Part shown: positions 52,801 to 64,000 of the stretch, piece after piece | How the letters are laid out: each line of letters begins with the position of its first letter | Position numbering within the stretch: position 1 is the stretch's first letter | Source of the DNA: Paludibacter sp. | GTDB lineage: Bacteria > Bacteroidota > Bacteroidia > Bacteroidales > Paludibacteraceae | Length of the DNA: 64,000 nucleotides | Assembly (NCBI GenBank): GCA_028691965.1 | Contig: JAQUYE010000002.1 | Coordinates: 17,206-81,205, forward strand | Direction: 5' to 3' | Position numbers and translations under genes: made by a program | Notes under the pieces: generated by a model | The model's database searches: none | What the model was told of the DNA's origin: nothing | Seen by the model: the letters and a program-made list of their open reading frames with translations, nothing else

Positions 52801-53946
52801 ACAGCCTCGACTAATCCGATAGATGGTGAGCTGACTTATCAATGGGAGCAAATCAGCGGACCGGAACAAGCTAATATAGTATCCCCTGATCTGTCTCTGA
52901 CAGAAATATTATTCAATACAGCAGGTACTTACCTGTTTCGATTGACAGTGACAAATGGCGTCGATATGGCTTTCAGGAATTTCCCGATTGTTGTGAGTTA
53001 TCCAACTATGGCCCATGATCTGGCACTTAAGAAATCGGCTTCAGCCTCTTCGTCGGAAAAAGTAAACATGTATCCGCAGGCGGGTGTTGATGCTAATGAT
53101 AATACCCGTTGGTCATCGACACATAGAAATGGCGAATGGTGGCAGGTCGATTTACAACATCAGGTTAAACCATCGCAAATTTCGATCGTTTGGCATACTG
53201 AATATGCAAAGAAGTTTAATATTCAGGTTTCCCCTGATGGACAGACCTGGCAAACTTATGCTACGAATGATGCTTTTTCGGGAGGAACTTCGAAAAGTAA
53301 TAATGAAGGTAATGTCTCGGGTCGTTATGTCAGGCTAAACTGTATAGAACGTTCTGGTCAATGGGAGAACTCTATCAAAACCTTCAATTTATATGGTGAT
53401 TTTGTCACTACGACAAACAAGGTCCCGGTTGCTAAAGCTAACTATGAAATGCAAGGAAGCCTGATTACCCTAAAGGCCGGCGAAAGTTCGGATGCCGATG
53501 GCGATAATCTGACATACAAGTGGGAACAAATAGCCGGTCCTGCTTATGTAACTTTAACCAATGCAACTCAGTTATCGGCCACCATCTCAAATGTCCCGGG
53601 AGGTACGTATTATTTCAAATTAATAGTTGATGACGGAAAAGATGTTGACTTCACGATTCTTCATGTTATCGTGGATGAAGTAAACACACAGATAACAGTT
53701 TCTCCCCGGGATCAGGATAAATTAATAGTTTATCCCAATCCGGTTAATGACAGGGTATTCATACAGTGTTCCGGAATGGAGATGGCAAACAGAGCAGATG
53801 TATACAGTGTATCCGGAGAATTAATAGCCTCAAAAAAGATGCTGAATGGAAGTGTTTCCTTAAAGGAACTACCGAACGGGATCTATTATTTGTGCTTGTT
53901 TTCGGATAAACACAAAATTGGTGATGTGAAAGTCATGAAAATATAG
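49873..53946 (+). CDS. Large multidomain GH3 glycosidase with CARDB-like, two discoidin/F5-8C (CBM32-like), PKD-like and T9SS domains
   Basis: GH3 'GFVMGDSPHGVR', 'SGGEDPYLAGHLAKSF', 'FYVVSDWANIDDA'; discoidin-like 'DGDLSTRWDSGNGTEESAIVDLAALCDVDKIELFW' and 'VDANDNTRWSSTHRNGEWWQVDLQHQVKPSQISIVWH'; PKD-like 'LTYQWEQISGP', 'LTYKWEQIAGP'; tail 'VYPNPVNDRVFIQ...GIYYLCLFSDKHKIGDVKVMKI'. Confidence 0.92.
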   Translation: MKNILIVLLVLSGIFTTYAQSPLDLRIDELLNAMTTQDKLEQMYTNRTSFGGTLANVRLGIPGFVMGDSPHGVRLTADRFDRTATAFPTGIAMAASWDEELVGRIGESMGLEFWSFGRHQALGPCLDLARDSRGGRTAESGGEDPYLAGHLAKSFTIGMQKYPVIATLKHFMGESMQSNRLKMDVIASQRWMMDFSGYNFRIPIQDAGAMSVMGSYNKINGTKAAENSMLLRTILRERWGFPFYVVSDWANIDDARNAARAGTELCMGSSIYEADLPSLVENGHITMVQIDNAVKNILRTKILNGMLDYYPAGSESNVKSKEISDVNLLAARKSIILLKNEISGTTPILPLQKTGIKIALIGPNAMAENLNCSGSSATNPPYAISIRKGLEDKIGSAVITYVKGCDINSTSRTGFAEAKALAATADYVIFAGGLDNTQEGEQSFGPHNDRVGGSFALPAIQQELMNELASVNPNLIAIIQSGGVCTLNTCFSSLKGLIYSFYAAQEAGHAIADVVFGDYNPAGRMPLSMPMQDSDFPVWEEEVFRKFEQNLDGGYRWLDEKGIKPRYAFGYGLSYTEFAYSNLQLPATVTTGEPFTVSVDVKNTGERAGEEVVQLYVSAPTDKVWMPKKELRGFRRIKLEVGETQTITFKFCADDFYYWNQTGRKYEVQSGNYIFRVGGSSDNLPLSQTLPFVAGTAKPDLRVTRVYTMPRYPLKGQKVSFYALVKNQGNAATTSASVYGISFSVAGQDVATTGQTKTIIAPGQVRLIGSEGVWNAETAGSMQLGAQLAFVNGNAEWDTSNNLYTTDIKIYNPDVVASEYKNLAYLKELTVSSEIGKYRGKQMVDGDLSTRWDSGNGTEESAIVDLAALCDVDKIELFWDTDFAKHYVLEKSLDGSNWAELKNVTEGAGSAEYHSFSVFDTRYIRIRFTERNSGAGKFSLREIRVFGTEKSKMPAARVMLQEKAVLLPHAKTYVDGTASTNPIDGELTYQWEQISGPEQANIVSPDLSLTEILFNTAGTYLFRLTVTNGVDMAFRNFPIVVSYPTMAHDLALKKSASASSSEKVNMYPQAGVDANDNTRWSSTHRNGEWWQVDLQHQVKPSQISIVWHTEYAKKFNIQVSPDGQTWQTYATNDAFSGGTSKSNNEGNVSGRYVRLNCIERSGQWENSIKTFNLYGDFVTTTNKVPVAKANYEMQGSLITLKAGESSDADGDNLTYKWEQIAGPAYVTLTNATQLSATISNVPGGTYYFKLIVDDGKDVDFTILHVIVDEVNTQITVSPRDQDKLIVYPNPVNDRVFIQCSGMEMANRADVYSVSGELIASKKMLNGSVSLKELPNGIYYLCLFSDKHKIGDVKVMKI

Positions 53947-54034
53947 GAACTGTTATTAGCATGTCTAACTCTGTTCACTCACTTGTCTGTACATCTCATG
54001 TTAAATTCATCATTCAACTGTTTTTTACTTTTTA

Positions 54035-54241
54035 TTACCTTGTGTGACACTTACGACAGCAATAATAACAACCATCTACTTTGTAGAAGTGTTTTTTTGC
54101 CTCCTTGATAGCTGATTCACAGTCATAAAAATTACCTAAATAGATACGATTTTCTATTGAGGGCATGAAAGAACATGTTGAAATGTGTACCTCATGTTCA
54201 CTAGTTGGTTGAGCAACTCTGTTTAAATAATAATCTGCCAT
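54035..54241 (-). CDS. Small conserved Cys-rich hypothetical protein
   Basis: 68 aa; 'EHEVHISTC', 'NRIYLGNFYDCESAIKEAKKHF', 'VDGCYYCCRKCHTR' resembles a known small Bacteroidota protein family (recalled, not searched). Confidence 0.75.
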   Translation of the reverse strand: MADYYLNRVAQPTSEHEVHISTCSFMPSIENRIYLGNFYDCESAIKEAKKHFYKVDGCYYCCRKCHTR

Positions 54242-54655
54242 AGTTCTTCTTTTTAAAGTTAGTTGGTTATTTATTTTTGATTTTTCATGAATTTATTTAG
54301 TATCAATCATTCATTATTTATGTGTTATTAAGTAACGTGGTAAAGCCGATTGCAATGATTTGCTCAGTCGGGATGTGCATAATTTCACGCTTAATATGTC
54401 TTGAGTTGAAGTTTGTAGAAATCAAATATGTGTTAGTATATCTAAGTATTTCCATGTTGAAAAACATAAAGGTTTTGGTTGTCAATTAGTTGGATGTGCA
54501 ATGTTAAGAATAGTTTTTGGGTTATGCAAAAAATAATCAAAAAATAATTACCTTGAAATATGAAGTTGTAATGTGACCTTACAGTAATGATTGGTGATAT
54601 ATAAAAAGGATTAATTGATGTGTTAACTTTTTTACACTCTTAATGTGTTAAATGC

Positions 54656-54686
54656 TTTGTTTTGTTTCCGAAATGCACTATATTTG
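54656..54686 (+). promoter_or_regulatory. Bacteroidota-type promoter (TTTG - 19 bp - TATATTTG) for the AbiE pair
   Basis: TTTG 54656-54659; TATATTTG 54679-54686; start at 54713. Confidence 0.7.
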
Positions 54687-54712
54687 CAGCATAATGGAAA
54701 TGAAATCAAGTT

Positions 54713-55330
54713 ATGACCTTTCCGGAGTTTAAAAATCAGTTGTTTGATCTGGCATGCTTCACCGGTTTTCAGGTGTACGCATGGAAGCCCGGTTTCGACC
54801 GGAATAACCTTACCCGCTGGGTGAAGAAGGGGTATCTAATCCGACTTCGTCAGGGATTTTATGCATTTCCCGAATATAAGAGCAAGCCGGATTATGCGCT
54901 TTATTTTGCCAATCGAATTTATCGTCCCTCCTATATAAGTCTTCACACGGCATTGTCGTTCTATGGAATGATTCCCGAAGCGGTGGTTCAAATTACCAGT
55001 ATAACTTCGTTAAAGACCGCATTCTTTAAAAATGACTTCAGCGAATATGCCTATAAGAACGTAAAGGAAAATCTGATATTTGGGTATGAATTGAAGCCCA
55101 TGGCTGATGGCCGAAGCTTGCAGTTTGCATCGCCCGAAAAGGCTTTGCTTGATTTGCTGTATCTGTATCCATTTTATGACAACGAACAGGAGTTGGAAGA
55201 ACTTCGCCTTGATGAAGATTTTCTGCATAATGAATTAAATAGGGAGTTGCTGATGGATTATTGCACGAAGTTTCAAAGCAAGGTGCTTGAGAGTCGGGTA
55301 AATTTACTTTTTAAAACCTACCATTTATGA
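54713..55330 (+). CDS. AbiEi-family type IV antitoxin
   Basis: 'LTRWVKKGYLIRLRQGFYAFPEYKS', 'YISLHTALSFYGMIPE', 'ASPEKALLDLLYL'. Confidence 0.82.
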   Translation: MTFPEFKNQLFDLACFTGFQVYAWKPGFDRNNLTRWVKKGYLIRLRQGFYAFPEYKSKPDYALYFANRIYRPSYISLHTALSFYGMIPEAVVQITSITSLKTAFFKNDFSEYAYKNVKENLIFGYELKPMADGRSLQFASPEKALLDLLYLYPFYDNEQELEELRLDEDFLHNELNRELLMDYCTKFQSKVLESRVNLLFKTYHL

Positions 55331-56115
55331 TACAGATAGAACAGATACGTAATTATTTCCCGGCTCACATTCGTGGAAAGTCAGGTTTTGATAAGTACTT
55401 ACTGAAAGAGTATTTGCAATTGATGATTTTGGATTATCTTTCTTCTACTCCTTTTGTTCAAAAGATGGCTTTTATCGGTGGAACACACCTGAGGCTGATA
55501 AAAGGGATCGACCGGTTTTCTGAAGACCTGGACTTTGACTGCAAAGATCTGACGAATGACGAATTTATTGAGATGACAAACGGGGTAATCCAATTCCTGG
55601 AACGTTCGGGACTGCGGGTTCAGGTGAAAGATAAAGAGAGTCCGAAACTGACCGCTTTTCGACGTAATATTCACTTCCCTGAATTATTGTTTGATTTGGG
55701 ATTAAGCGGTCACAAGGAAGAGCGTTTTCTAATTAAAATCGAAAGTCAGGATCAGAGAATAGTTTATTCTCCCGTGATCGTTAATATTAAGGGTTGCGGA
55801 TTCTTTTTCCCATTTCCGGTACCTTCCGATAGTATCATGTGCAGCATGAAAATTGCTGCCATGCTTTCCCGGGCAAAAGGACGTGATTTTTATGACCTTA
55901 TGTTCTTATTGTCACAATCGAAACCTGATTATGATTTTCTTTCCAACCGTTGCGGTGTGACAAGTTTACAGGAGTTCAAAAAGGCTACTTCCGATTTGCT
56001 AAAGACAATCGATTTGAAGAATAAACAGAAGGATTTTGAACACTTGCTTTTTAATAAAACTTCCGGTGAGCGGGTGTTGCGTTTCGGCGAATTTGTAGAT
56101 TCGCTAACGGAATAA
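55327..56115 (+). CDS. AbiEii-family nucleotidyltransferase toxin
   Basis: 'MAFIGGTHLRLIKGIDRFSEDLDFD'; ATGA overlap with the upstream gene. Confidence 0.85.
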   Translation: MIQIEQIRNYFPAHIRGKSGFDKYLLKEYLQLMILDYLSSTPFVQKMAFIGGTHLRLIKGIDRFSEDLDFDCKDLTNDEFIEMTNGVIQFLERSGLRVQVKDKESPKLTAFRRNIHFPELLFDLGLSGHKEERFLIKIESQDQRIVYSPVIVNIKGCGFFFPFPVPSDSIMCSMKIAAMLSRAKGRDFYDLMFLLSQSKPDYDFLSNRCGVTSLQEFKKATSDLLKTIDLKNKQKDFEHLLFNKTSGERVLRFGEFVDSLTE

Positions 56116-56220
56116 AATTCTCCATGTAACGAATAGAAAACTAAATGTTACAACTGCAAAAGTATGTAACAGAGAGCAAAAAACTTGTAATATTTATGTA
56201 AGTATTTGGTGTGTTAAAAC

Positions 56221-56251
56221 TTTGTCATATGGCTGATAATGAGTATATTTG
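56221..56251 (+). promoter_or_regulatory. Bacteroidota-type promoter (TTTG - 19 bp - TATATTTG) for the AraC regulator
   Basis: TTTG 56221-56224; TATATTTG 56244-56251. Confidence 0.7.
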
Positions 56252-56293
56252 TAGCTGACTGTCAAAGACTAACACCGTTAAATACTAATAAAT

Positions 56294-56857
56294 ATGCACA
56301 GAAATTGTATTCGACAGTTTAGCAAAAACCTTTGCCAAATTGTGAAAATGAGTTCTACCCCGGAACTGAGTATCGAGTTGTTTATCTACAACAATCTGTA
56401 TCACAACACTGATTCAGATAGGGAAGAACTGCTGAGTAGATTACAGGCACTGATGCCCCGGATGGAGGAGGTGCTGATTGAATTAATGAGCGATAACCGC
56501 TATCCGCTGGTAGTGCGCAAAGCTGTAGACTATATTGATAAATATTTTACGCAGACTAAAAAAATTCAGGGCGACGCTATTGCGGTGGCGGTGGGGATGG
56601 ACCGCTCGGCGCTGAGTAAACTTTTCAAATCCTGTTTGGGAAGTACTATCCATCAGTATGTTAACCAATTACGACTGATTATGGCAGTGGATAGGCTCAT
56701 GACTACCCAGCATCCGATTGCCGCTATTGCCGAAGAATGTGGTTTTCAGCATGAATCGCATCTTATTCGCCTTTTTTCACGTGAATTTACGGTTTCACCT
56801 TCCCGTTACCGCCAGTTAATCGTTCCCCAGCGGGTAACTCAGCGTATTGCCGTATAA
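56294..56857 (+). CDS. AraC-family transcriptional regulator
   Basis: 'IAVAVGMDRSALSKLFKSCLGSTIHQYVNQLRLIMAVDRLMTTQHPIAAIAEECGFQHESHLIRLFSREFTVSPSRYRQL'. Confidence 0.88.
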   Translation: MHRNCIRQFSKNLCQIVKMSSTPELSIELFIYNNLYHNTDSDREELLSRLQALMPRMEEVLIELMSDNRYPLVVRKAVDYIDKYFTQTKKIQGDAIAVAVGMDRSALSKLFKSCLGSTIHQYVNQLRLIMAVDRLMTTQHPIAAIAEECGFQHESHLIRLFSREFTVSPSRYRQLIVPQRVTQRIAV

Positions 56858-56882
56858 TCCTGATCGTTTCGCCAGGTCGTTT

Positions 56883-56931
56883 AACCAAAAACACCCCGTC
56901 TGCGTGAGTCGCAAACGGGGTGTTTTTGGTT
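56883..56931 (+). terminator. Intrinsic terminator of the AraC gene
   Basis: Perfect 17-bp arms aaccaaaaacaccccgt / acggggtgtttttggtt. Confidence 0.9.
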
Positions 56932-56965
56932 GTTCTATTCTGCGTAATTGCTTATTTTGTCCTGT

Positions 56966-56990
56966 CAAACTGACCCACACACCCTGCATG
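56966..56990 (+). repeat. Left arm of 25-bp inverted repeat bounding the 22-bp array (partner 57176-57200)
   Basis: caaactgacccacacaccctgcatg versus reverse complement of catgcaggatgtgtgggtcagtttg; one mismatch. Confidence 0.9.
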
Positions 56991-57208
56991 ATTGACCCGC
57001 ACATCCTTTGTGACAGACCGGCATATCTCGTGTGATGGTCTGCCACATCTCGCGTGATAGCTTGCCACATCTCGCGTGTGCGTCTGGCACATCTCGCGTG
57101 ATGATCTGCCATATCTCGTGTGCGCGTCTGGCACATCTCGCGTGATGATCTGCCATGCAGGATGTGATGATCTGCCATGCAGGATGTGTGGGTCAGTTTG
57201 GCAGGGCG
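56967..57208. repeat. 11 tandem ~22-bp units (consensus near TGATGATCTGCCACATCTCGCG)
   Basis: Exact 22-bp register, e.g. 57033 tgatggtctgccacatctcgcg, 57055 tgatagcttgccacatctcgcg, 57077 tgtgcgtctggcacatctcgcg, 57143 and 57165 tgatgatctgccatgcaggatg (identical). Confidence 0.9.
57176..57200 (-). repeat. Right arm of 25-bp inverted repeat bounding the 22-bp array
   Basis: See left arm. Confidence 0.9.
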
Positions 57209-57302
57209 TTACAGCTGATAAGGTTGGGCGTAACAGACAGATACATCAGGTCAGTTTGATCGTTTTGCGGGGAGCTTTCTGACAAAAAGGTTAAGTTTAA
57301 AA

Positions 57303-57337
57303 CAAAAAAAAGTTGCCCCGTTTGCACGGGACAACTT
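57303..57337 (-). terminator. Intrinsic terminator of the minus-strand GH108 operon
   Basis: Minus strand aagttgtcccgt-gcaa-acggggcaactt followed by a T-run. Confidence 0.85.
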
Positions 57338-57385
57338 AGTGTAGAAGGTCGAACCTTTCAGGTTAGAAGGACGAGCCCTGGTAGC

Positions 57386-58498
57386 TTACGATCGGTGTAC
57401 CCTTTTCCATCCGACGATACTGACAATCAGCAGGAGGGCGACGACCAGGATCCATCGAAGGATACGTTGCGGTCGGGACCGGTTGGTTGGGTCGGGGGAA
57501 GCCCCGGTGAGGGGGCGGTTAATGGTCACCGAGTCGTCGAGCCGGACGGTAGCGCCGGTACTGCGGGCATCGGTGCTGGCAGCTTCGGCAGCCCGGGTAA
57601 CGACCCTGCGCTGTATCCGCCGCTCCATCCGCACCACAGGTACCAGACTGTCCATCCATACTATCGGCATCAGGTTGTCAATCCGAACCTCCGGCACCTG
57701 ACTGTCAATCGATGCCACCGGTACCAAACTGTCCATCCAACCTGCCGGTGCCTGCTTGTCCAACCGGGTCACCTGAGCGGGCTTACCCATCCATACCACC
57801 TGCCATTCGTCGGTGCTTTCCTCCACCCGGTCGTGCGTTGTAACCACGCTTTCGCGGTGTGAAGTGCTGTCGGCCTGCGCCGCCATTTCCCGGACCTGGT
57901 GCTGAGTGGTCAGCTTCGGGGCGGTCGACCGGCACGCGGCGATGGAAGTAAGCACCATCAGCAGGACTACTGACAAGGTGAACTTCAGGGCACGTACGCG
58001 GTTGATCCAGCCCGCAAGGAAGATCCGGTTGGCGGGACGGTAATCGCAGATGCGGTACAGATGGGCATAGCGGGCTACCTTCAAGCGGTAAAACAACTCC
58101 CGCTGGTTGCCGTAGGTATTGATGGCCGAGAGGGTTTTGTTGCCGACAATCCCGTCCATCTTCACCTTCAACTCTTTTTGTGCCAGGCGGATGGAGTACG
58201 GTCCGCACATCCACATCCAGTCGACCAGCACCTCGGCAATGGCCTGCGTACGGATGCGGTCGGCTTGCCAGCGGTTCCAGAAGTGCGGGCGTAGTACCCG
58301 CTCTACCAGGTCGTGGGTCGACATCCGTAGCAGATCATCGGTGTTGATAATCCCATTCCCATCCTTATCCACGCCCACCTGTTGCCAGGTACGCAGGGTA
58401 ACGCCCTGGTTGGTAGGGCCTCCGCGATCGGCCGCATGGTTTACAAAACCACCTTCCCACCGGCGTAAAAAAGGAATATATTGCGAGATATCAGCCAT
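57386..58498 (-). CDS. GH108 lysozyme/N-acetylmuramidase fused to a lipobox + nonapeptide-repeat + C-terminal TM (spanin-like) region
   Basis: 'YIPFLRRWEGGFVNHAADRGGPTNQGVTLRTWQ' (GH108 catalytic EGG) and PG-binding region 'VDGIVGNKTLSAIN'-like to residue ~170; then 'LKFTLSVVLLMVLTSIAACRS' and 'RILRWILVVALLLIVSIVGWKRVHRS'. Confidence 0.85.
   Translation of the reverse strand: MADISQYIPFLRRWEGGFVNHAADRGGPTNQGVTLRTWQQVGVDKDGNGIINTDDLLRMSTHDLVERVLRPHFWNRWQADRIRTQAIAEVLVDWMWMCGPYSIRLAQKELKVKMDGIVGNKTLSAINTYGNQRELFYRLKVARYAHLYRICDYRPANRIFLAGWINRVRALKFTLSVVLLMVLTSIAACRSTAPKLTTQHQVREMAAQADSTSHRESVVTTHDRVEESTDEWQVVWMGKPAQVTRLDKQAPAGWMDSLVPVASIDSQVPEVRIDNLMPIVWMDSLVPVVRMERRIQRRVVTRAAEAASTDARSTGATVRLDDSVTINRPLTGASPDPTNRSRPQRILRWILVVALLLIVSIVGWKRVHRS
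57629..57790 (-). repeat. Six in-frame 9-aa repeats within the GH108-fusion protein
   Basis: MGKPAQVTR-LDKQAPAGW-MDSLVPVAS-IDSQVPEVR-IDNLMPIVW-MDSLVPVVR (27-bp period). Confidence 0.85.
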
Positions 58499-58500
58499 GA

Positions 58501-58746
58501 TTAGTCGTTAAGAGTTGAGTTCATTTCAGTTAGCATCTCGTGCTGTTGCTTTTGCAGGGAGAGTACCTCTTCGAGCAATTCCTGTTGCTTGACAATTATA
58601 TCGTTGACGATGCGCATGGTCCATTTCATAAAGATGAAGATGAGCGCCGATGAATATACGATATAGGCAGCAGCAGCGGTGATAAGGAAACCGTCATCGG
58701 CAATTGCCCTGCCGGTTTCCTGTAGCAAAGATGCACTTACATCCAT
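58501..58746 (-). CDS. Small single-TM holin-like protein
   Basis: 'MDVSASLLQETGRAIADDGFLITAAAAYIVYSSALIFIFMKWTMRIVNDIIVKQQELLEEVLSLQKQQHEML': TM plus coiled-coil tail; located between HU-like and lysozyme genes. Start at 58746 preferred. Confidence 0.55.
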   Translation of the reverse strand: MDVSASLLQETGRAIADDGFLITAAAAYIVYSSALIFIFMKWTMRIVNDIIVKQQELLEEVLSLQKQQHEMLTEMNSTLND

Positions 58747-59447
58747 TAAGCGGCAGTGGTGAGAGTTGTCTTCAGCGACCCTGTACACAGTTCCTTACCA
58801 TTCTTGCCCCTGGTACGCACGGTACACACATACTCTCCCGCGGCGATGGCAGGCAGCTGTAAGTGTACTTCCTTCGGAAGGATCTTCGCGTAGGTTTCGA
58901 TACGTACTTCGGGTTCCGATTCGTCGACCGGCTGCAGGAAGATGCCCTGTGCCTGGTCGTCCTTATCGAAGGCCAGCTGGGTGCCACGTACCATCGCGAT
59001 ACCTCCCGAGCTGATTTGCTCGTTGTTGGTGTTCGAGCAAACATCGATAAAGTTGGTCACTTCCGGCGACTGATCGCTGATGCGAACGCGCTCGGGCTTA
59101 ATGAGTTCCAATAAATCATTGAAACGGGAACCCGGGGTGCTGCGCAGGCGAACCTGATGACGTTCGGGGTCGAACAGGTCGTACTCCTCGTAAAACTTGC
59201 CGGTAATACTGGCCTTGAACTTCACGAGCGGGGTGCTGACAGCATAACCCTTACTGAGCCAGAAGGAAATCGACTGCATGAGGCGTTCGAAATAGGCCAG
59301 GGCCTGCGGACGGGTCAGCCCCGTACCCTCGTCGATCATCATCTCGAGAATGTCGTCGAGGTTCTTCGTGCCGGTGTTGGTTACCAGGGCTACATACTTT
59401 TCGTCGCCCTTAGTCAGGTGATTCTTCAATAAAACGTACTTTAACAT
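58746..59447 (-). CDS. HU-like DNA-binding domain protein with C-terminal Ig-like/DUF4469-type domain
   Basis: 'DDILEMMIDEGTGLTRPQALAYFERLMQSISFWLSKGYAVSTPLVKFKASITGKF' is the Bacteroidota HU-like pattern; C-terminus 'AGEYVCTVRTRGKNGKELCTGSLKTTLT'. Confidence 0.8.
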   Translation of the reverse strand: MLKYVLLKNHLTKGDEKYVALVTNTGTKNLDDILEMMIDEGTGLTRPQALAYFERLMQSISFWLSKGYAVSTPLVKFKASITGKFYEEYDLFDPERHQVRLRSTPGSRFNDLLELIKPERVRISDQSPEVTNFIDVCSNTNNEQISSGGIAMVRGTQLAFDKDDQAQGIFLQPVDESEPEVRIETYAKILPKEVHLQLPAIAAGEYVCTVRTRGKNGKELCTGSLKTTLTTAA

Positions 59448-59528
59448 ACTTGTAATTTTTAAAAATGAATAAATTGTTTACTTTTCGCATAGCGAACATC
59501 TGATCAGAATGTAACGAAATGACGGTTG

Positions 59529-59536
59529 CAAAGATA
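59529..59536 (-). promoter_or_regulatory. Candidate -7 element (TATCTTTG on minus strand) for the HU-like/holin-like/GH108 cassette
   Basis: Plus strand caaagata at 59529-59536, ~82 bp upstream of the HU-like start. Confidence 0.5.
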
Positions 59537-59552
59537 GAGTGCGATAAAATGG

Positions 59553-59594
59553 AAAAATTGCACGTTTGTGGTCAAAAATTGCACAATTGTGGGC
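59553..59594. repeat. Two tandem 21-bp repeats near the cassette promoter
   Basis: aaaaattgcacgtttgtggtc / aaaaattgcacaattgtgggc. Confidence 0.8.
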
Positions 59595-59667
59595 AATTTC
59601 ACCCCCCGAAGATCAATTCACACGTTCAGCGGAGCGGGGTATTGCCGGTGACAACCTTCGGCGGTGA

Positions 59668-59765
59668 GCCAACAAGGCCCCTGAAGGAAAGCCGGAAATC
59701 CTCCTTGTCTGAGCCCTTTAGGGCGAGTTTGGAGGATTTCGCTTTCCGAAGGTCGCCTTGTTGAG
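59668..59765. repeat. ~98-bp imperfect hairpin containing dispersed element copy 2 (core 59696-59739)
   Basis: Arms aacaaggc...gaaggaaagc..gaaatcctcc / ggaggatttcgctttccgaaggtcgccttgtt; apex gccc-ttta-gggc. Confidence 0.85.
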
Positions 59766-59998
59766 CGAAGCGACGACAGTTGGAACCCGGCAACACCCCG
59801 CGAGTGAAAGCCTGCGGGCAACACCCCGCGAGTCAAAGAAGACGAGTCAAGGAAGACGAGTAACACTCCGCGGGTAAAAGCCCCCGCAGTACATGTTTTT
59901 ATCCCCTACATTTTGTGTTATCACGAAAGAAGCGTATTTTTGAGGAATTTTTAACAGTAGTAACCGCTTTCAGCGTAGCAATACTCACCTTTACCCCC

Positions 59999-61666
59999 AT
60001 GAATAAGTTGGTAATAGTACTATTTATTAGTTGTTTCCTGCTGGCACACCAAGACCTGAATGCTCAGTCGACACCCGTGGGACTCCCCACAATGGATGAT
60101 TACCTGCGCCGCCAACAATTGCTCGGCGATAGTTCGGTGAAAGCATCGCTGATGTTGCGTCCGCTGCACAGCACTTCCGAAGGATTTAAAGGAACAGAGC
60201 TGCACCTGATGCCGCTGGTGTGGAAGCAGCAGTACGTTACCGATCATCCGCTGAGCATTAACGACGGAGCCATGATTCCCGCACGCGGCTATCAGACGAT
60301 GCTGTCGACCGGCTTCTTTGCACGATGGGGGATACTGTCGGCACAGCTGATGCCTGAACTGGTGTTTGCTGAGAACAGGGACTTCGACGGCTTCCCCGAC
60401 GAGCATTACTTCGTGATCTGGGATCGCTATAACTCCTATAAAGGTACTATCGACCTGCCCGAACGTTTTGGAGACGAAGCGTACCGAAGGGTGTTCTGGG
60501 GACAAAGCAACGTGCGACTGAGTTATAAGGCTGTGTCGCTGGGACTCTCGAACGAGAACCTCTGGTGGGGGCCCGGACAAAAGAATGCGCTGATGATGAC
60601 CAATAATGCCCCGGGCTTCAAGCACCTTACCTTCAACTCTACCCGTCCGCTGAATACCCCCGTGGGCAGTTTCGAGTGGCAGGTGGTGAGCGGCAGGCTC
60701 GATGAATCGGGATTCCCCGGACTGGATACGGCTGCCCTTGCTGCCCGTACCCTCAAGCCCCGCGAGAAGCCATCGAGCTGGCGCTATATAAACGGCATTA
60801 CCGTGAACTACCAGCCCCGCTGGTTACCGGGACTGAGTCTGGGCGCTGCCCGTGCCTATACCCTTTACGGCGAATCACTGAAGAAATACGGCATCCGCAC
60901 CTGGCTGCCGGTGTTCGAATCCTTCCTCAAAGATAAAACCGGGATACAGTCGGCCGATACCCTTGCCTCCGACCAGGTGGCCTCTGCCTGGGTGCGCTGG
61001 CTGATGCCGGACGACCATGCCGAGGTGTACCTGGAGTTTGGGAGGTCGGACCATAGCTGGCACCTCAACGACTTCCTGCTGGAACCGGGGCACGGGCGCG
61101 CCTACATCCTCGGCTACCGCAAGCTGGTGCCGCTGAGTAAGGGGCGCGGCGATTACCTCGACATCCACCTGGAACTTACCCAGTTCAGTATGAATGTGCC
61201 TACCTACCTGCGCACGCAGAAGGGTTACTCGATGTGGTACAACCATTACGGGGTGTCGCAGGGGTATACGCACGAGGGACAAATTCTCGGTGCGGGCATC
61301 GGTACAAGTAGTAATATGCAGCTGCTGAATATCGCCTGGGTGAGGGGGAGGAAGCGTGTCGGACTGGAACTGTATCGCCTTAATCACGATCAGGACCTGT
61401 GGAGTAACCTGCGCTGGGATGGGTATTTTGATCATCGTACGCACTGGGTGGATATCAGCGGGGCATTGGTGGCCGACTGGAACTACCGCAATTTTCTGGT
61501 GAACGTGAAGCTGCAGACAGTAGCTGTGCATAATTATATGTTCCTGTACGATCCGATCCCCACCGAGCCGCCTTACTTATGGGACGTAGGTAAAACACGC
61601 TATAATGTAAACGCGGAGCTATCGCTCGTGTACCAGTTTCGCCCTTTTAAAACGAAAAACAAATGA
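59999..61666 (+). CDS. Wzi-family capsule assembly outer membrane protein
   Basis: 'VFWGQSNVRLSYKAVSLGLSNENLWWGPGQKNALMMTNNAPGFKHLTFNS', 'GYRKLVP', barrel-like C-terminus. ATG at 59999 preferred over 59915. Confidence 0.87.
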   Translation: MNKLVIVLFISCFLLAHQDLNAQSTPVGLPTMDDYLRRQQLLGDSSVKASLMLRPLHSTSEGFKGTELHLMPLVWKQQYVTDHPLSINDGAMIPARGYQTMLSTGFFARWGILSAQLMPELVFAENRDFDGFPDEHYFVIWDRYNSYKGTIDLPERFGDEAYRRVFWGQSNVRLSYKAVSLGLSNENLWWGPGQKNALMMTNNAPGFKHLTFNSTRPLNTPVGSFEWQVVSGRLDESGFPGLDTAALAARTLKPREKPSSWRYINGITVNYQPRWLPGLSLGAARAYTLYGESLKKYGIRTWLPVFESFLKDKTGIQSADTLASDQVASAWVRWLMPDDHAEVYLEFGRSDHSWHLNDFLLEPGHGRAYILGYRKLVPLSKGRGDYLDIHLELTQFSMNVPTYLRTQKGYSMWYNHYGVSQGYTHEGQILGAGIGTSSNMQLLNIAWVRGRKRVGLELYRLNHDQDLWSNLRWDGYFDHRTHWVDISGALVADWNYRNFLVNVKLQTVAVHNYMFLYDPIPTEPPYLWDVGKTRYNVNAELSLVYQFRPFKTKNK

Positions 61667-62451
61667 TGAAGCTTGCTGTTGTCGTTTCGTCCTGTGATGC
61701 CTTCCGCGACTGTTGGGAACCGTTTCTGTATTCGCTGGATACCTACTGGCCGGATTGTCAATGGCCGGTGTATATGGTGTCGAACGAGCAGGCGATGCCA
61801 CACGACAAGGTGAAGTTTATAAGGGTGGGCGACGACCGTGGCTGGGCGTCGAACCTGAAGCTGGCCTTGCAGCAGGTGGAAGCTGAGTATATCCTCTACC
61901 TTCAGGAAGATTATTTCCTGAACCGGAGGGTGAAGACGGAAGTGTTGCGCGAACAGCTGGAGTATTGCCGGGCGGAGCGGGTGGATTACCTGCGACTCAC
62001 CCCTCCTTTTTTTGATGCGCACATTCTCCCCGGTAGCGACTATGCCGTGAGTCCCCCGTCGGCTCCCTACCGCCTCTGTCTGCAGGCTGCCCTCTGGAAA
62101 AAGGATACCCTCGACAAGCTCCTGATACCTGGTTTTAATGCCTGGCAGTTTGAACGGGAGATAGAAAGTTATATCCGTAAGCAGCAGTGGGAGGTGAACA
62201 GCAGGGTACTGCTCTCGTTGCACTATCCGGAGAAAGGCTTTTATTATGTGCCCGATACGGCGGTACACAAAGGGATGTGGTCGCAGAACGGCGTCGACTT
62301 CCTTATCAGTCACGGCTTTGAACACCTGCTCGCGAAACGAAAGATAGAGGGAAAGCTGCTCACGCGGCTGATCCATGTGGAGAACAAGGTGGCGCGCCTG
62401 TTTAGTACCTCCCTGGTGCGGATACTGTTAAAGCTGAAGGTAAATGTTTAA
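61663..62451 (+). CDS. Glycosyltransferase-like protein
   Basis: 'KLAVVVSSCDAFRDCWEPFLYSLDTYWPDCQWPVYMVSNEQ', 'EYILYLQEDYFL'; ATGA overlap with the wzi-like gene. Confidence 0.7.
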   Translation: MMKLAVVVSSCDAFRDCWEPFLYSLDTYWPDCQWPVYMVSNEQAMPHDKVKFIRVGDDRGWASNLKLALQQVEAEYILYLQEDYFLNRRVKTEVLREQLEYCRAERVDYLRLTPPFFDAHILPGSDYAVSPPSAPYRLCLQAALWKKDTLDKLLIPGFNAWQFEREIESYIRKQQWEVNSRVLLSLHYPEKGFYYVPDTAVHKGMWSQNGVDFLISHGFEHLLAKRKIEGKLLTRLIHVENKVARLFSTSLVRILLKLKVNV

Positions 62452-62542
62452 TACAAGTTGTGTTTTTTTAAATTTAACTATACTAATAAGTCGTTCGTTT
62501 CGTTTGTACTGAGATGAAGTGTGCTTAAAAAAATCAGAATAT

Positions 62543-63367
62543 ATGTCATTTGTAAAACGATTGTTGTGGATAGTGCTGCCCGTGGTACTGATGGCCTCGT
62601 GCCGGTCGTACGAAAAGGTAGCCTACATGAGGGAGTCGGGGATCAGCGTTGCGGGCGATAGTACCGTGAATTATACCACTCCCGACCCGCTTATCAAGGT
62701 GGGTGATGTGTTGCTGATAACAGTGAATACCTCGACACCCGAGGCTTCGGCGGCCTTTAACCTGCCCCTGATCCCTTCGGGGAATGAGAGTACGCGCGGC
62801 TATACCCTCGATAAGGGGGCTTCGCTTGCCATGGGGTACGGGATGCAGAACTACCTGGTGGAGAGCGACGGGTACCTGGCCTTTCCGGTAATCGGGAAGC
62901 TGAAGGTAGCCGGACTGCATAAATCGGAGCTGGTGGAGCTGATAAAGTCGAAGATCTATCCCGAATATATAAAGGAAGAGCCTATGGTGCTGGTGCGCTA
63001 TGCCAACTTTATGGTGTCGGTGCTGGGGGAGGTGTCGAAGCCGGGACAGTATCCCATCAATAACGAAAAGGCTACCCTGCTCGAGGCCCTGGCCATTGCG
63101 GGGGATATGACCATCTACGGCGAACGCTCCAATTTGTTGCTGGTGCGCGAGACCAACGGGGTGAAAGAGATGGTGCGCATCGACCTGCGCGATAAGTTCC
63201 TGGTGCATTCGCCTTATTTCTACCTGCAGCAGGGCGACGTGATCTACGTGGAACCAAACGGTGCACGTTCCCGTTCGGCGGGTGTGGGTTCGGCCGAATC
63301 GCTTACCATCTCGGTGGTGGGGACCTTTATATCGCTGGCAACATTGGTAATCACATTAATTAATTAA
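62543..63367 (+). CDS. Wza-like polysaccharide biosynthesis/export lipoprotein
   Basis: Lipobox 'VVLMASCRSYEKVAYM', 'IKVGDVLLITVNT', 'GYLAFPVIGKLKVAGL', 'VSVLGEVSKPGQYPI', 'QQGDVIYVEPN'. Confidence 0.93.
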   Translation: MSFVKRLLWIVLPVVLMASCRSYEKVAYMRESGISVAGDSTVNYTTPDPLIKVGDVLLITVNTSTPEASAAFNLPLIPSGNESTRGYTLDKGASLAMGYGMQNYLVESDGYLAFPVIGKLKVAGLHKSELVELIKSKIYPEYIKEEPMVLVRYANFMVSVLGEVSKPGQYPINNEKATLLEALAIAGDMTIYGERSNLLLVRETNGVKEMVRIDLRDKFLVHSPYFYLQQGDVIYVEPNGARSRSAGVGSAESLTISVVGTFISLATLVITLIN

Positions 63368-63384
63368 TAAAGAGGTGGAGGAGT

Positions 63385-64000
63385 ATGCAAAACACTACTA
63401 AACAAAAAGAGGAATTAATTAATGTACGGGAATTGTTCGAGAAATACCTCAGCTACTGGCGATGGTTCGCTGTGTCGCTGGTTGTCTGCCTGGCCTTAGG
63501 TGCCCTCTACTACCTGTCAACGCCCATGACCTTCTCGTTTAAGGCGCAGGTACTGGTGGTGGATCCGAACAATGAGATGTCGCAGATGTCGGTGCTCAAT
63601 GAACTGAGCAGCATGGGTGGTATTACGTCGGGAATTGCCAAGAGTACCACCAACAACGAGGAACTGGTTATCCGATCCGGGATGATCGTGGAGCGCGTGG
63701 TGGATAAGCTGAAGCTGCACACTACCTATCGGTACCGTCCGCGCCTGCGCATGACGGAACTCTACACGGAAACACCTTATACAGTGGAGGCCGACAGTGC
63801 CCTGCTGCACACGATAGGGCGCGAGATTTACTTTACCATCGACCGCACGGATAAGGGTTACCGCATTAAAGGGGGCGAGGTGGATAAGCTCAAGCGCAAG
63901 ACGAAGTTTGAGGTGATGGCGCCCTCGCTGCCGTATACGGTGAAGCTGAAGCGCGGAACCATGACCATCAGCGCTACGGATCAGACGGCCCTCGCCGACG
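63385..64000 (+). CDS. Wzc-like chain-length determinant / tyrosine kinase, truncated by window end
   Basis: ATG at 63385: MQNTTKQKEELINVRELFEKYLSYWRWFAVSLVVCLALGALYYLSTPMTFSFKAQVLVVDPN...; open to the end of the window. Confidence 0.85.
   Translation, partial: MQNTTKQKEELINVRELFEKYLSYWRWFAVSLVVCLALGALYYLSTPMTFSFKAQVLVVDPNNEMSQMSVLNELSSMGGITSGIAKSTTNNEELVIRSGMIVERVVDKLKLHTTYRYRPRLRMTELYTETPYTVEADSALLHTIGREIYFTIDRTDKGYRIKGGEVDKLKRKTKFEVMAPSLPYTVKLKRGTMTISATDQTALAD

Follow-up and report, generated by a model that had tools for sequence, protein, structure and literature searches.

How can an enzyme that is needed outside the inner membrane work when it is attached to a lipoprotein signal? The question is raised by a single open reading frame (ORF) in the window, by which we mean the whole stretch of 64,000 nucleotides analysed here. 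The sequence-only reading of this DNA had described a GH108 endolysin joined to a u-spanin-like lipoprotein in 370 aa at 57386-58498 on the minus strand, and its coordinates, length and translation were all reproduced. The parts of the ORF are as follows.

57386 to 58498, minus strand: fused ORF, 370 aa, comprising a GH108 endolysin, a lipoprotein signal, a tail and a C-terminal transmembrane (TM) segment
57986 to 58498, minus strand: GH108 muramidase domain with PG_binding_3 region, residues 1-171, with invariant Glu15
57935 to 57985, minus strand: internal lipoprotein-type signal, residues 172-188, hydrophobic, preceded by basic NRVRAL; AlphaFold (AF2) helix 177-191
57932 to 57934, minus strand: Cys189, presumed lipidated cysteine of the lipobox I-A-A-C, invariant in the aligned fusions
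57464 to 57934, minus strand: presumed periplasmic part of the u-spanin-like tail, residues 189-345, without further cysteine
57633 to 57749, minus strand: 27-bp tandem repeats coding for nonapeptides (W/S/R)(M/I)D(S/N)..P..
57413 to 57463, minus strand: core of the C-terminal TM segment, residues 346-362, from hydropathy; AF2 helix 342-369

Residues 1-170 had been taken for a complete GH108 lysozyme with its peptidoglycan-binding region, and this holds. Pfam places GH108 (PF05838) at residues 10-99 (E 1e-17, 64.7 bits against a cut-off of 21.2) and PG_binding_3 (PF09374) at residues 105-168 (E 5e-12, 46.2 bits against a cut-off of 24.6). Solved GH108 structures align up to residues 169-171 (2ikb over 4-169, 7dnp over 7-171, 2nr7 with its last segment reaching 171). 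In an AlphaFold model built on an 18-row alignment, pLDDT exceeds 90 across most of residues 1-170 and the final GH108 helix occupies 155-170; then come a break, the separate helix 177-191, a mostly disordered stretch, a helix at 282-314 and the C-terminal helix. Foldseek with this model retrieves the GH108 fold (2nr7 at E 4e-12, 7dnp at E 1e-7), and Glu15, the EGG-type glutamate, is the same in 18 sequences. Extension of GH108 past residue 171 in structural models, raised earlier as a point to check, is ruled out by the solved-structure alignments together with the AlphaFold break: the domain stops at 171. Judged by its sequence, then, the GH108 part is a complete muramidase domain, and peptidoglycan hydrolysis is predicted for it. 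It shares the complete domain, the fold and an adjoining small TM gene with known GH108 muramidases (P. gingivalis 2NR7, Brucella SagA 7DNP, phrog_315 phage endolysins), but these end after about 170-195 residues, whereas the window ORF runs on into a spanin-like part. It does not have the N-terminal signal-anchor ahead of the catalytic domain that characterizes SAR endolysins, since GH108 starts at the N-terminus.

Directly after GH108, where a lipoprotein signal had been proposed, there is indeed a hydrophobic segment followed by SIAAC with Cys189. I-A-A-Cys189 agrees, as a pattern match only, with the lipobox consensus [LVI][ASTVI][GAS]C (PMC6139136), and the cysteines of the ORF lie at 98, 151 and 189 only, so that Cys189 is the sole one after 151. 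Hydropathy peaks at 168-184 and at 346-362, the latter reaching 2.91 within the last AF2 helix, which bears out the proposed C-terminal TM. The nonapeptide repeats are also real (27-bp period, about 4 copies), and most of the repeat stretch is absent from the aligned fusions. The tail is predicted to be lipidated, inserted into membrane and exported.

A lipobox combined with a C-terminal TM is the layout of u-spanins such as phage T1 gp11, as had been noticed before; here it is placed behind GH108. The tail resembles u-spanins (Kongari et al. 2018, PMC6139136) in its lipobox, in a soluble stretch with no other periplasmic cysteine, in its one C-terminal TM domain and in its lysis-gene neighbourhood: it is fused to an endolysin, directly behind a phrog_19698 TM gene with a presumed holin role. 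It differs in that known u-spanins have genes of their own and carry the signal at the extreme N-terminus of their product, whereas here the signal is internal, from residue 172 onward behind the enzyme, with no conserved start codon there. A lipobox behind a folded 171-residue domain is unusual and counts against reading the ORF as a u-spanin fusion. If the reading is correct, a lipoprotein signal can follow a folded domain of this size.

The tail is fast-evolving and, according to AlphaFold, mostly disordered. The window tail had no significant sequence match to any stand-alone spanin, and BLASTP against the prophage u-spanin candidate of genome G001 gave no match. Alignment of the fused tails with 16 split u-spanins by hhalign ran mainly over the TM and is taken as weak; profile matches of the tail to an Rz-like spanin, phrog_3198 (E 0.04-0.13), and to lipo-invert (E 0.09) were below significance and were not used (PHROG/NCBIfam). 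A codon-usage test was uninformative, because the true frame of the tail (0.045) was not better than frame 3 (0.048). It is the openness of the frame and its recurrence, rather than codon usage, that carry the case for the tail.

The same fusion is present in five more cassettes from three other genomes of the genus, G027 (C90, C78 and C117), G045 (C34) and G010 (C312); with the window's included, fused cassettes were found in 4 of 48 genomes of the genus. C90 and C34 share 98% DNA identity and, being near copies, are not independent. The three cassettes of G027 lie in one assembly; over 1.9 kb C78 and C117 share 96% identity, and their flanks differ. The contig of C117 stops short of the tail's end, that of C78 stops inside the last hydrophobic segment, and the GH108 part of C312 is split by a frameshift. 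In the window, C90, C34, C78 and G010 the frame stays open as far as the C-terminal hydrophobic segment. Tails of the genus fusions are only about 20% identical, yet the cysteine is invariant; some of the other lipoboxes are loose (WGGC, TGGC, FMSC). The layout recurs in six cassettes of the genus, in which the cysteine is invariant while the tails diverge, and in an unrelated family; it is beyond chance. That the 370-aa ORF is a GH108-u-spanin fusion, with neither a stop nor a start codon between the parts, is well supported. As to an assembly or frameshift artefact as the origin of the fusion, its occurrence in six cassettes and one other family rules this out.

Could a free u-spanin nevertheless be made from the same frame? 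The sequence-only reading had left two possibilities, endolysin and outer-membrane disruption functions in one frame, or an internal CTG start making both. Recurrence and split homologues favour the one-frame fusion; the CTG start fares worse. This CTG (57988-57986) is codon 171 of the fused ORF. At the aligned position C90 has TTT, C78 a Phe codon, C312 ATC, and G295, a genome of another family, CTC. Internal initiation is disfavoured, since the other fusions do not keep the CTG as a start codon, and no ATG, GTG or TTG near the junction is shared across the compared fusions. If the frame gave two products, the complete fusion and, from CTG 57988 or some other internal codon, a free u-spanin, this would have a precedent in phage lambda, whose lysis gene S has dual starts, and C78 of G027 does have an in-frame ATG one codon past the CTG-aligned position, although it is absent from the other fusions. 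However, split relatives begin mostly with ATG, which implies that a start codon was lost rather than kept, and we regard such double use of the frame as very improbable.

Homologues in which the two parts are separate ATG genes, a check proposed earlier, do exist. A separate ORF with a lipobox and a C-terminal TM comes next after GH108, at -40 to +118 nt, in 42 of 95 distinct scorable relatives, which is a lower bound, as the split candidates L203 and L070 were missed by the scoring rule. ATG is the start codon in 40 of these 42 ORFs, and 21 of them overlap the GH108 stop by exactly 4 nt. As background, the u-spanin layout occurs in 88 of 1195 ORFs (7%) of that size in the same loci, spanins included. 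Among GH108 relatives the split arrangement is the common state. At L075 and L158 the GH108 and u-spanin genes are already in the same frame with a stop and a few bases between them, so that loss of one stop would fuse them. In Bacteroidales phages and prophages, split cassettes run from a phrog_19698 TM protein through an amidase or GH108 to a u-spanin. Their parts and order are those of the fused cassette, except that endolysin and spanin are separate genes there, often with a 4 nt overlap. These split cassettes are clearly the evolutionary source of the fusion. According to a 2025 survey (PMC12596118), u-spanins are the only spanins used by Bacteroidetes phages; among the viral contigs examined the fusion was not found.

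This step appears to have been taken more than once. In G295, from a different family within the order, a 378-aa ORF combines GH108 with LVSC and with a hydrophobic C-terminal region, whose TM hydropathy falls under the threshold used; no small TM gene adjoins this fusion. Stand-alone ORFs in relatives match the tail of this fusion, with E values as low as about 1e-29 to 1e-30; one such ORF is at another place in G295. These ORFs combine a lipobox with a C-terminal TM and immediately follow genes for amidase or GH108 endolysins. G084, of the same family, still has GH108 and lipoprotein as two genes, with an ATGA overlap. With dissimilar tails and different families, the fusion is judged to have arisen at least twice.

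Is the fused gene maintained? Between C78 and C117 the GH108 part has a pN/pS of 0.06 (P 1e-8), indicating strong purifying selection. For the tail the value is 0.58, not significantly below 1 (P 0.12). In pairs of similar divergence, stand-alone u-spanins mostly show 0.33-0.62 and their GH108 neighbours 0.03-0.42; exceptions are the L096/L099 spanin (0.11) and L075/L079, with small numbers. The tail evolves as stand-alone u-spanins do. These values bear on the suggestion that the join arose by accident in a decaying prophage cassette and does no harm, which would fit its rarity in the genus, the frameshifted GH108 in G010 and the lack of a small TM gene next to the G295 fusion. Selection on GH108, an open frame down to the last hydrophobic segment and the kept cassette neighbours all oppose decay, and we consider it improbable.

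The neighbours are these.

58501 to 58746, minus strand: holin-like small TM protein, 81 aa, a short phrog_19698 member; an ATG start is preferred over the listed GTG
58746 to 59447, minus strand: HU-DNA_bdg/DUF4469 protein, first gene of the cassette
57310 to 57337, minus strand: intrinsic terminator, 12-bp stem and T-run, just past the fused ORF
59529 to 59536, minus strand: TATCTTTG upstream of the cassette, a sequence match only to TAnnTTTG, which we take to be the consensus of a Bacteroidetes-type promoter element
56294 to 56857, plus strand: AraC-type regulator, convergent with the cassette

The cassettes have in common the HU-like gene, the small TM gene and the fusion, tightly packed in the window, and an AraC-type gene is convergent in all four cassettes with a visible flank (window, C90, C34, C312). 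Within the genus the small TM protein occurs only in the six fused cassettes, apart from one more weak match (E 0.002) in a 798-aa frame. It aligns with the first portion of phrog_19698 (E 1e-10; 4e-14 for the G010 homologue), whose full-length members (L203, L213, L224) adjoin amidase or GH108 and u-spanin genes, and for this reason the cassette is considered phage-derived. Position and a single TM make the small protein a holin candidate; a search of viral contigs with the holin-like profile gave no confirmed relative. In length it has 81 aa against about 200 aa in the phrog_19698 relatives, the C-terminal part being missing from all fused cassettes.

No phage structural genes were recognised among the window proteins scanned, and the other fused cassettes likewise have none nearby. 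The flanks in the window encode Wzi, polysaccharide export, AraC, AbiEi/AbiEii, GH3, rhamnosidase, SusC/SusE-type proteins and regulators. Type 10 secretion systems, i.e. domesticated holin-endolysin-spanin cassettes (Yersinia entomophaga, PMC10847048), likewise have no phage structural genes and a regulator nearby; they have one gene per function, whereas here two are joined, and no released cargo, nor a cargo gene beside the cassette, was recognised.

From the domain order, the recurrence, the split relatives and the conserved cysteine we infer a topology, a processing step, outer-membrane sorting and a route to lysis. We think it probable, though by no means assured, that a Bacteroidales-type chromosome here carries a lysis cassette of phage origin whose endolysin and u-spanin genes have merged, and that processing splits the single product into both again. 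GH108 would fold in the cytoplasm. The internal signal would insert N-in/C-out with the basic C-terminus of GH108 as its n-region, for which the basic residues kept there, ahead of the hydrophobic stretch, may serve. Lgt and signal peptidase II would then act at Cys189, cutting the chain in two. The N-terminal product would be an endolysin tethered to the inner membrane through the signal remnant, and the C-terminal one a mature u-spanin with its lipid in the outer membrane and its TM in the inner membrane. Once the inner membrane had been opened by the small TM protein, the endolysin would reach the peptidoglycan, and the freed u-spanin would then fuse or tear the membranes.

If the chain is not processed, both hydrophobic segments might merely anchor GH108 to the inner membrane, with no spanin function at all. 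Enc34/M4Lys endolysins, with an N-terminal catalytic and a C-terminal TM domain (PMC8943055), lend this some plausibility, as does a fast-evolving tail mostly predicted to be disordered. Yet a plain anchor would require no invariant cysteine closing a signal-like segment, and no stretch of roughly 150 residues that ends in a second TM, and in relatives the lipobox-tail-TM unit is a separate gene behind various endolysins; a mere anchor is unlikely. Enc34/M4Lys are in any case the nearest precedent for hydrophobic segments behind a catalytic domain, and access to peptidoglycan is unexplained there too. Enc34/M4Lys/Siskin-type enzymes share that order, by which the enzyme should sit at the inner membrane, but they belong to another enzyme family, have a TM pair without a lipobox and leave the spanins as separate genes (ORF40/41; PMC8943055).

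Processing at Cys189 would also permit a more speculative proposal, which we hold only tentatively: the ORF may encode a lysis polyprotein that supplies the activities for cutting peptidoglycan and for breaking the outer membrane in equal numbers, is divided by the host signal peptidase II and is kept by chromosomes as a regulated self-lysis device with AraC and HU-like partners.

We found no natural endolysin-spanin fusion in the open-access literature searched, and the joined endolysin-spanin is a real arrangement that has apparently not been described. Endolysin and spanin are treated as separate lysis steps; a natural and recurrent fusion, made at least twice, links the two. It also points to overlooked chromosomal lysis cassettes of Bacteroidota, to which gene callers give no more than the label GH108 or secretion activator.

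A few further observations concern the surroundings. Between the AraC gene and the cassette terminator (57020-57188) there are 22-bp direct repeats (ATCTCGCGTGATGGTCTGCCAC, 44- and 66-bp periods), and this array gives rise to a spurious ORF at 56816-57178. An AbiEi/AbiEii type IV toxin-antitoxin pair with strong PADLOC matches adjoins the cassette (54713-56115). Over 53000-64000 of the window, GC is about 0.28-0.43 left of 56.5 kb and 0.47-0.63 to the right, the cassette sitting on the GC-richer side together with the polysaccharide export genes. Finally, in a distant genome of the class (L222, G1170:C2:13065-13550), a GH108-like match lies inside a 1374-aa open frame.
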